Part shown: positions 28,739 through 59,723 of the stretch, in pieces
Layout of the letters: every line of letters begins with the position of its first letter
How positions within the stretch are numbered: position 1 is the stretch's first letter
From: Paenibacillus taihuensis
GTDB lineage: Bacteria; Bacillota; Bacilli; Paenibacillales; Paenibacillaceae
Assembly: GCF_003386535.1 (NCBI RefSeq)
Contig: NZ_QTTN01000036.1
Span: forward strand, 1-64,000
Direction of reading: 5' to 3'
DNA: 64,000 nt
Position numbers and translations under genes: made by a program
The notes under the pieces: generated by a model
Databases searched by the model: none
Told to the model about the DNA's origin: nothing
Seen by the model: only the letters and a program-made list of their open reading frames with translations

Positions 28739-28803
28739 GTTGTTTACAGCAGCGCGTCCGTCTATTAGAATGGATGAAATTACCACTGGAGGTGTTCGCC
28801 TGT

Positions 28804-29610
28804 ATGGAAGAAATTATCGATTACTATTCCGGCTTTGATGAGTGGGGGCGGCTTGACCGGGAACCGCTCGAGTTCAAAGTAAACCTGCATTACATTAGGT
28901 CGACTCTGCCTCAGGGCGGACACCTTCTGGACAACGGCGCTGGCCCGGGCAAATATGCGATGGAGCTGGCAAAGCTAGGCTATCGGGTTACGCTCAGCGA
29001 TTTGACGCCAAGATTGGTGGAGGTCGCCAAGGCGAAGGCGGTTGGGATGGGGCTTTCAGGTCATTTTGCCGATTTCCTGGTGCAGGATGCGAGACATCTG
29101 AGCCAGCTAGAGAGCAATCAATTCGATGCGTCGCTCATGTTAGGCCCGTTATACCATTTGCAAGATGAAGCCGATCGTGTGCAGGCGCTGCAAGAGCTGC
29201 ACCGTGTCACGAAGTCCGGGGGACTCGTATTCGTAGCCGTTCGGCCTCGCACGAGCAAGCTGCTCTCTGCACTGATGGCTCCTACTCAGTGGAAGCCGCT
29301 GGATCAGGTCGCGGCCATCCGCGATTTTATGCAGTCAGGCGTGTTCAATCATGCAGATAAAGGCAGGTTTACCGGCGCGTATTTCTTCAACATCGAGGAC
29401 GTGAAGCCTTTCTTCGAGCAGCATGGTTTTGAGACGATTCAGTTAATCTCGTCAAAAGGTATCGGCGGACGCTTAACCGAAGAGCATTGGGCATATTGGC
29501 GCGAACGTGGCGAAGAGGATGCGGTCTTGGAGCTCATCTATGAATCTGCGAAGGACCCGCATTTGCTGGGGACGGCTTCGCATTTGCTGTATATAGGGCG
29601 GAAGAAATGA
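28804..29610 (+). CDS. Class I SAM-dependent methyltransferase
   Basis: 268 residues. Motif I is LLDNGAGPGKYAMELAKLGYRV, the acidic strand is TLSDLTPRLVEVAKA and motif IV is SLMLGPLYHLQDEADR. It shares layout and end (ASHLLYIGRKK) with the 22899 protein. GGAGG lies 11 nt before ATG 28804; no better start is seen. The hairpin array begins ~15 bp after its stop. Confidence 0.87.
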   Translation: MEEIIDYYSGFDEWGRLDREPLEFKVNLHYIRSTLPQGGHLLDNGAGPGKYAMELAKLGYRVTLSDLTPRLVEVAKAKAVGMGLSGHFADFLVQDARHLSQLESNQFDASLMLGPLYHLQDEADRVQALQELHRVTKSGGLVFVAVRPRTSKLLSALMAPTQWKPLDQVAAIRDFMQSGVFNHADKGRFTGAYFFNIEDVKPFFEQHGFETIQLISSKGIGGRLTEEHWAYWRERGEEDAVLELIYESAKDPHLLGTASHLLYIGRKK

Positions 29611-29625
29611 TAGAAAAGACAGGAA

Positions 29626-30072
29626 GCCTGGGAGGCTGAGAGTCGAGAAAACCGACTCTCAGCGGCGACAAGCTGCGTATCCAGCGCTGAGAGTCGGAAT
29701 ATCCGAGTCTCAGAATCGAGAGGGTCCGAATCCGCGCCGCCTGGGAAGGCTGAGAGTCGAGAAATCCGACTCTCAGAATCGAGAGGGTCCGAATCCGCGC
29801 CGCCTGGGAGGCTGAGAGGCGAGAAATCCGACTCTCAGCGGCGAAAAGCCGCGTATCAAGCACTGAGAGTCGGAATATCCGACTCTCAGAATCGAGAGGG
29901 CCCGAATCTACGCCGCCTGGGAGGCTGAGAGTCGAGAAATTCGACTCTCAGCGGCGAAAAGCCGCGCATCCAGCGCTGAGAGTCGGAATATCCGACTCTC
30001 AGAATTCAGAGGTCCGAATCCGCGCCGCCTGGGAAGGCTGAGAGTCGAGAAATCCGACTCTCAGAATCGAGA
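29626..30072. repeat. Array of eight related hairpins, 113-bp period
   Basis: Five alpha hairpins (CTGAGAGTCG, 7-nt loop, CGACTCTCAG) start at 29636, 29750, 29812, 29925 and 30038. Three beta hairpins (CTGAGAGTCGGA, ATA loop, TCCGACTCTCAG) start at 29687, 29863 and 29976. Each alpha-to-beta gap is a 24-bp segment that can itself fold (CGGC-GAAAA-GCCG). The segments linking one unit to the next are ~35 bp and conserved (ending CCGCCTGGGAGG). A full unit is 113-114 bp; the second lacks the spacer and beta hairpin and is 62 bp. No credible gene lies in it. Confidence 0.92.
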
Positions 30073-30121: not shown

Positions 30122-30164
30122 AAAAAAAGAGCTAAGCATATTTACGCCGCTTAGCTCTTTTTCA
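30122..30164. terminator. Bidirectional terminator before the LysM gene
   Basis: AAAAAGAGCTAAGC pairs with GCTTAGCTCTTTTT around an 11-nt loop, giving a T-run on both strands. It ends the minus-strand LysM gene and any transcript coming through the hairpin array. Confidence 0.9.
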
Positions 30165-30218: not shown

Positions 30219-30614
30219 TTATTGCTGCTGCGACGTTGTACCAGTACCTTGCATACCTTGCACGGCGTGCGCAGGCATCTCGGAGTAGGATTTTTGGCAA
30301 ACCATGTTCGAGATGCGAGGAATGTAGATCGTTTCGCCTTTTTTCATTGCGCTCGGGTTCACATGCGGATTTGCTTCTTCCATGATGGAGAGCGGCATGT
30401 TGTACTTGTGGCAGATCGATGCCATTGTGTCGCCGGTTTGCACTTGGTGCGTCGCGAAAACCATGTCATCGGACTTCCCGTCACGGAAGAATGGGAAGAA
30501 GAACGGCGAGAAGAAGAAAAACGGGAACAAGAAGCGGTTCGGGAAGAACGGGTGAACGAACGGACGGAAGAACGGACGGCCAAACCCGCCGCCTGGGAAA
30601 AATCCACGATCCAT
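30219..30614 (-). CDS. LysM-domain protein with Phe/Pro-rich N-terminus (spore-coat-like)
   Basis: 131 residues. Residues ~1-45 are extremely Phe, Pro and Gly rich (PNRFLFPFFFFSPFFFPFF), without a normal signal peptide. Residues ~55-100 are a LysM domain (HQVQTGDTMASICHKYNM to KKGETIYIPR), which binds peptidoglycan or related glycans. The C-terminus is Gln/Gly/Thr-rich. The composition recalls small spore coat or cortex-associated LysM proteins such as SafA relatives; that is inference. TGGAGG is 9 nt before the ATG. Confidence 0.8.
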   Translation of the reverse strand: MDRGFFPGGGFGRPFFRPFVHPFFPNRFLFPFFFFSPFFFPFFRDGKSDDMVFATHQVQTGDTMASICHKYNMPLSIMEEANPHVNPSAMKKGETIYIPRISNMVCQKSYSEMPAHAVQGMQGTGTTSQQQ

Positions 30615-59312: not shown

Positions 59313-59723
59313 TTATACCTGTCGCTTCTTCCGCCGCGAGCTGGCTGTCACGTTCTTCCCAACGTTGCCGCCGCTCCTTCTCTCGGCAACATTTCCCGTA
59401 CCTGTGCCGCTTCTTTTGTCCGCACTTCGGCTGCCTTTCGCATTGCCTTTGTCAATGCCTTTCGCATTGCCTTTGTCAATGCCTTTGTCAATGCCTTTCC
59501 CTTTGACAATGCCTTTGCATTTCCGCTTGCCGGTCGCAGTAGCGATCCCGTTATCGACACCGCTGTCGGCTTCGTTGCCCGTCCCCGCCGCGTCCGTATC
59601 CGTGCTCTGCTTGCTCGCATTCTCATTCAAGTCAGAAATATCTTCAATCTCTACCGCATCCCCGAATAGAATGATGCCTTCGTTCTTTACTATGACAACT
59701 TTCCCGATCCAGCAGAATGGCAC
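59313..59723 (-). CDS. Probable spore-associated protein with Lys/Gly repeat tail
   Basis: 136 residues beginning at a GTG. Residues ~1-35 (WIGKVVIVKNEGIILFGDAV) recall the short GerPA/GerPF-type domain of spore germination proteins. Residues ~65-100 repeat GID-K-G and NAK-G units (KGIDKGIDKGNAKG), and the C-terminus is very basic (RRKKRQV). The composition suggests nucleic-acid or matrix binding in a spore layer; that is inference. The opposite-strand frame at 59365 is the Pro/Leu shadow of the repeat. The start is uncertain: AAGGA is 12 nt away. Confidence 0.55.
   Translation of the reverse strand: MPFCWIGKVVIVKNEGIILFGDAVEIEDISDLNENASKQSTDTDAAGTGNEADSGVDNGIATATGKRKCKGIVKGKGIDKGIDKGNAKGIDKGNAKGSRSADKRSGTGTGNVAERRSGGNVGKNVTASSRRKKRQV
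59443..59518. repeat. Codon-level tandem repeat in the Lys/Gly-rich gene
   Basis: On the plus strand, GCCTTTGTCAAT and GCCTTTCGCATT blocks alternate six or more times, giving the KGID/KGNA repeats of the encoded protein. The copies are nearly identical in DNA as well as protein, so the array is young or kept uniform by slippage. Confidence 0.8.

Follow-up and report, generated by a model that had tools for sequence, protein, structure and literature searches.

Hairpin arrays with length-conserved spacers form a probable BIME-like repeat family in Paenibacillus

Results

An array of eight hairpins lies between two convergent genes

We analyzed the window, a stretch of 64,000 nucleotides of Paenibacillus taihuensis DNA, in which a first-pass annotation had pointed out a group of hairpins between two genes. 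As listed below (strand is given for the genes), the array lies downstream of a methyltransferase gene, whose stop codon precedes the first hairpin by 25 bp, and is followed by a terminator-like hairpin.

28774..29610, plus strand: class I methyltransferase gene (Methyltransf_11), upstream of the array
29626..30072: whole array, with eight hairpins of 27 nt, spacers of 24 and 35 bp in alternation, and part of a 35-bp spacer at either edge
29636..29662: alpha hairpin 1, 10-bp stem and 7-nt loop
29663..29686: S1 copy 1, 24-bp spacer
29687..29713: beta hairpin 1, 12-bp stem with one mismatch, 3-nt loop
29714..29749: S2 copy 1, 36 bp, the usual length plus 1
29750..29776: alpha hairpin 2; S1 and beta are absent after it (62-bp step)
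29777..29811: S2 copy 2, 35-bp spacer
29812..29838: alpha hairpin 3, one arm change, T to G
29839..29862: S1 copy 2, 24-bp spacer
29863..29889: beta hairpin 2, perfect 12-bp stem
29890..29924: S2 copy 3, 35-bp spacer
29925..29951: alpha hairpin 4
29952..29975: S1 copy 3, 24-bp spacer
29976..30002: beta hairpin 3, perfect 12-bp stem
30003..30037: S2 copy 4, 35-bp spacer
30038..30064: alpha hairpin 5
30124..30162: terminator-like hairpin outside the array, located between the convergent genes; 14-bp arms, A and T runs
30219..30614, minus strand: gene for a small LysM-domain protein, convergent

The eight 27-nt hairpins span 29636-30064 and start at 29636, 29687, 29750, 29812, 29863, 29925, 29976, and 30038. 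Five are of the alpha type (29636, 29750, 29812, 29925, and 30038), with a 10-bp stem and a 7-nt loop; in the one at 29925, one extra pair can close. The three beta hairpins (29687, 29863, and 29976) have a 12-bp stem and a 3-nt ATA loop. All 16 arms match the motif CTGAGAGTCG, 14 of them exactly and two with one change each, at 29704-29713 (beta 1) and 29812-29821 (alpha 3). Shuffles of the whole window yielded 4 ± 2.3 matches to the arm motif and never reached 16, and the exact hairpin pattern occurred 6 times compared to 0 expected. The start-to-start steps of 51, 63, 62, 51, 62, 51, and 62 bp define a unit of 113 to 114 bp, with one unit lacking S1 plus beta (51 bp). The order is alpha-S1-beta-S2-alpha-S2-alpha-S1-beta-S2-alpha-S1-beta-S2-alpha, and the short unit has thus lost S1 and beta. 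The array contains identical 62-nt blocks. These results agree with the first-pass annotation, which had described eight hairpins of two types (7-nt versus 3-nt loop), a 113- to 114-bp period with one shortened unit, and 16 arms sharing one motif with few changes; its reading of a maintained tandem array is upheld. It had also regarded the spacers as foldable. S1 folds weakly (DNA z scores of +0.3, -1.0, and -1.7) and S2 no better than chance (z about +2), and foldability is therefore not a defining feature of the spacers.

Other observations concern the surrounding sequence. In genomes G001 (L059/L064) and G019 (L063), the upstream methyltransferase has an ortholog that is divided between two overlapping frames, which suggests a frameshifted gene. 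The protein encoded at 30219-30614 (minus strand) has a LysM domain in its C-terminal half, and its N-terminal stretch is largely Phe, Pro, and Arg. Elsewhere in the window, positions 59432-59521 contain the 12-bp short tandem repeats TGCCTTTGTCAA and TGCCTTTCGCAT, perhaps within coding sequence.

The hairpins are dispersed in the host genome and in related species

The first-pass annotation had overlooked that the same hairpins occur throughout the host genome. In its 6.79 Mb, we detected 30 exact hairpin copies and 146 copies at up to three mismatches, mostly in arrays with 51/62-bp spacing between genes. A reversed-pattern control on this genome gave 0 matches. The family is present in 7 of the 23 species of this Paenibacillus genus, with 11 to 297 copies per carrier species, and a search at two mismatches matched the same seven. 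The carriers include Paenibacillus sp. CF384, Paenibacillus sp. OV219, and P. lignilyticus. None of the 377 genomes from other genera of the same family contained the hairpin at two mismatches.

A phage or plasmid origin was rejected, as no exact hairpin was present in IMG/VR phage contigs and no plasmid matched the array. A known structured RNA family was rejected as well: Rfam returned sub-threshold matches alone, up to 24.6 bits, and none above the gathering score. No published Paenibacillus family of this kind was found in the open-access papers searched, which is not proof of absence. The first-pass annotation had named a REP-like family with many scattered copies as the finding that would speak against its reading. 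Scattered copies are largely what we found, although the family is absent from Rfam.

We compared syntenic sites between species. In G001, the same two convergent genes are about 83 bp apart and have no array between them; here, they are separated by 608 bp. At a second site, a 4-hairpin array is present in the host genome and none in P. lignilyticus. Other arrays are common to CF384 and P. lignilyticus. Taken together, the empty sites and the shared arrays indicate that arrays come and go and can persist between species. No target-site duplication was seen, and the divergence of the empty sites is too great for the ends of the element to be defined.

Spacer length is kept while spacer sequence changes

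To describe the geometry of the family, we used 419 hairpins from 63 loci of four species. Among about 344 distances between neighbors, 170 were 51 bp and 122 were 62 bp; the remainder were mostly within 1 bp of these values or corresponded to a skipped decayed hairpin. The two steps were seen in 75 clusters. Between loci, the spacers are 33 to 55% identical, and they are not random, with T tracts at columns 6-9 and 17-19 of S1 and at columns 28-30 of S2. In orthologous arrays of sister species, the spacers differ by 14 to 47% and are homogenized within each array, and their lengths stay at 24 and 35 bp, save for one orthologous array that has fixed an S2 longer by 1 bp. The flanking noncoding DNA has about 0.135 indels per substitution; at this rate, by our own estimate, the spacers should show about a dozen changes in length, the basis of the comparison being six array pairs (two of them alike) and 21 flanking gaps.

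Spacer length is also kept with other hairpin stems. A second hairpin type, with inner stems AGG..CCT, AAC..GTT, and AGC..GCT, is separated by spacers of 24 to 25 and 35 bp in the arrays read, and was counted 295 times in G001, 231 in OV219, 135 in the host genome, and 51 in G005. Examples such as TGAGAGAGGCTTTTCCCTCTCTCA and TGAGAGCACGTATGTGCTCTCA have the outer stem of the first type and often lie beside first-type arrays (L031, L037, L040, L043, and L073; G001 and OV219 genome-wide). Among the matches listed, no exact second-type hairpin falls within G001:C1:1.5-3.57 Mb, about 2 Mb of a complete chromosome.

Counted as sequences and not as independent events, the outer GAGAG/CTCTC pairs are 94 to 97% intact; the inner pairs vary, and some are changed on both sides. 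On the T-loop strand (416 hairpins), there is a slight excess of G-T over A-C mismatches (163 versus 117, P = 0.007; 139 versus 108 among distinct hairpins, P = 0.056).

Across 51 loci, the 113-bp unit shows a periodicity in A/T content of 10.25 to 10.35 bp, about 10.3, as do the spacers alone. A column permutation was judged too lenient as a control and was replaced by circular shifts, which preserve the run structure. The period ranked 8 of 840 shifts overall, and 1 in the host species, 22 in CF384, and 29 in P. lignilyticus; against this control, phasing in the latter two is only modest.

Array orientation is strongly tied to replication, not to gene direction

In 62 of 65 arrays, the A-rich loops lie on one common strand. 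This A-loop strand was the locally G-rich, leading-type strand in 52 of 64 arrays (P = 4.6e-7; the total includes a few orthologous arrays more than once, under different species), including 23 of 29 in the host and 19 of 22 in P. lignilyticus. The GC skew of the complete G001 chromosome flips sign around 0.7-1.0 Mb and again around 4.0-4.3 Mb, at a distance of about half the genome. On this chromosome, the same skew rule holds for 30 of 37 second-type sites. When gene direction and skew are in conflict, the arrays side with the skew (7 of 8), and between convergent genes they follow it in 23 of 25 cases. Orientation is unrelated to the facing gene (15 of 37). Mutational skew alone is an unlikely cause of the polarity, because AT skew amounts locally to a few percent and because, on the C-rich strand, S2 is rich in G. 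According to crude ORF calls, the array sites are intergenic, with 25 between convergent, 33 between tandem, and 2 between divergent genes, and the arrays are mainly downstream of genes.

The family is best called untagged and BIME-like

At 27 nt, the palindrome is within the 20 to 50 nt of the REP class, and it occurs at 146 places, with nearly all loci intergenic by the crude ORF calls. The 75 clusters with 51/62-bp steps have the regularly spaced tandem arrangement of BIMEs. The alternating orientation of BIMEs was not found; the hairpins are direct by their loops (62 of 65 arrays), on which the orientation call rests since the stems are near-symmetric. For the same reason, the doublet is not the inverted REP pair that constitutes the replicative unit of a REPIN. 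No GTAG or CGTC tag was present in the spacer columns adjoining the hairpins. The Y1 transposase (RAYT, PF01797) is absent from the host genome and from all carrier species, the one weak match being in a noncarrier, and no Y2 transposase was found in the carriers. Nor did any mobility gene recur beside the arrays, the cluster members examined being AraC-type/Ada regulators, ABC transporter parts, PhyH, and CorA. As the tag, the alternating orientation, and RAYT were each looked for and not found, we do not file the family as REP or BIME but call it untagged and BIME-like. The earlier statement that the array fits no known feature type was too strong, given that its architecture, copy number, and intergenic position resemble those of REPs and BIMEs. 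A CRISPR array was rejected; the spacers occur in duplicate within an array, with lengths of 24 and 35 bp in turn, instead of being unique and of a single length.

Discussion

It is likely that the array is a member of a dispersed, BIME-like repeat family. The explanation that best covers the observations as a whole, to which we assign a probability of about 0.5, is that of lineage-restricted, BIME-like DNA repeats that were seeded, amplified by recombination, and serve as a DNA platform. The repeat unit is hairpin-24 bp-hairpin-35 bp. According to this model, a putative enzyme would seed single units by acting on one replication strand while its DNA is single-stranded; in sense, the A-loop strand corresponds to the lagging-strand template. 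Each array would then be amplified, trimmed, and homogenized through recombination or slippage between its hairpins, and one such event may account for the 51 bp missing at 29626-30072. The conserved property would be DNA geometry, that is, paired stems at a fixed helical distance with phased A/T tracts. By analogy with gyrase on E. coli BIME-2, this geometry would most likely offer a topoisomerase or nucleoid protein a platform on which to bind or wrap DNA near the 3' ends of genes. In E. coli, gyrase cuts BIME-2 repeats in vivo, and the arms of its motif have a periodic GC content of 10.75 bp (PMC6379681). The period of about 10.3 bp found here is shorter, and gyrase is thus just one candidate. 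We regard the role as a phased platform at the DNA level as tentative and only moderately likely; spacer length could be held by a requirement of transposition instead of a host function. A more far-reaching proposal is that Paenibacillus has a new class of polar chromosome element, in which hairpins are set at exact helical distances along the replication direction as a putative platform for a DNA-wrapping protein (gyrase or a nucleoid protein) and are spread by a non-RAYT enzyme. This we consider unlikely.

A purely selfish, REPIN-like element would have no host role, and the fixed distance between two hairpins would be a need of a putative single-strand transposase. The patchy distribution, the widely variable copy number, and the empty syntenic sites are consistent with such an element. 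So is the replication polarity, which is expected of elements using the lagging-strand template, such as IS608 and ISDra2 (PMC6006769), and the REPINs of Pseudomonas fluorescens likewise combine fixed spacing with less conserved spacers (PMC3116915). This alternative is a real possibility, weakened by the lack of Y1 in any carrier, of Y2, of a recurrent mobility gene beside the arrays, and of the inverted doublet of REPINs, and by arrays that are kept between species with their lengths intact long after the spacers have diverged. The array could instead act in RNA, forming the 3' end of the transcript of the upstream gene and working as a stabilizer or, as the first-pass annotation had proposed, as a switch between folds. 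Its position between a stop codon and a terminator-like hairpin would suit this role, as would the location of arrays mainly downstream of genes and the hairpin pairs that change on both sides. The RNA fold z score of -9.2 points in the same direction, although this low energy follows from the hairpins alone. Several results argue against a function in RNA, which we find improbable, and against the switch in particular: the spacers fold weakly, G-U is not preferred over A-C on the sense strand (75 versus 68, P = 0.62), and orientation ignores the facing gene and follows replication. Moreover, RNA hairpins are not expected to keep spacer lengths exact or to show phasing on a helical scale. Finally, the identical 62-nt blocks within the array would suit a one-off local tandem duplication without wider meaning, a view refuted by the recurrence of these hairpins, with this spacing, at dozens of loci across several species, which leaves it with hardly any likelihood.

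Descriptions of REP and BIME repeats come mainly from Proteobacteria, where the repeats are usually linked to RAYT transposases. The Gram-positive counterpart lacks RAYT, has spacers locked in length but free in sequence, and shows replication polarity; it thereby sets array geometry apart from array sequence. The orthologous arrays in sister species represent natural replicate experiments on the role and spread of REP-like arrays.

Bcr1, RUP, and BOX, small MITE-type repeats of Firmicutes, are short, dispersed, intergenic, and foldable. The Paenibacillus repeats share these properties; they are set beside them by description, with Rfam as the sole sequence comparison. They differ in that their unit consists of two short palindromes, and no long terminal inverted repeats were seen. 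Another group is formed by the REP-like palindromes, CGTC-tagged or untagged, of PMC3733652. These also have no dedicated transposase, and untagged families are mentioned there; unlike the tagged ones, the Paenibacillus family has no CGTC tag. The cases in that paper come from Proteobacteria and other phyla, and Paenibacillus is absent from its text. The REPINs of P. fluorescens resemble our arrays in having a hairpin pair at a fixed distance, a less conserved spacer, and tandem clusters (PMC3116915). However, a REPIN is an inverted REP doublet linked to RAYT, whereas the Paenibacillus doublet is direct and no Y1 transposase was found. In comparison with BIMEs, the Paenibacillus hairpins are direct and not alternating, have neither a GTAG tag nor a RAYT transposase, have spacers that vary in sequence at a held length, and belong to a different lineage. 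Yet, as in E. coli BIME-2 and the REP clusters of Xanthomonas, the palindromes are dispersed between genes, stand in tandem with two linkers in alternation, are mostly absent between divergent genes, and have copies homogenized within each array.
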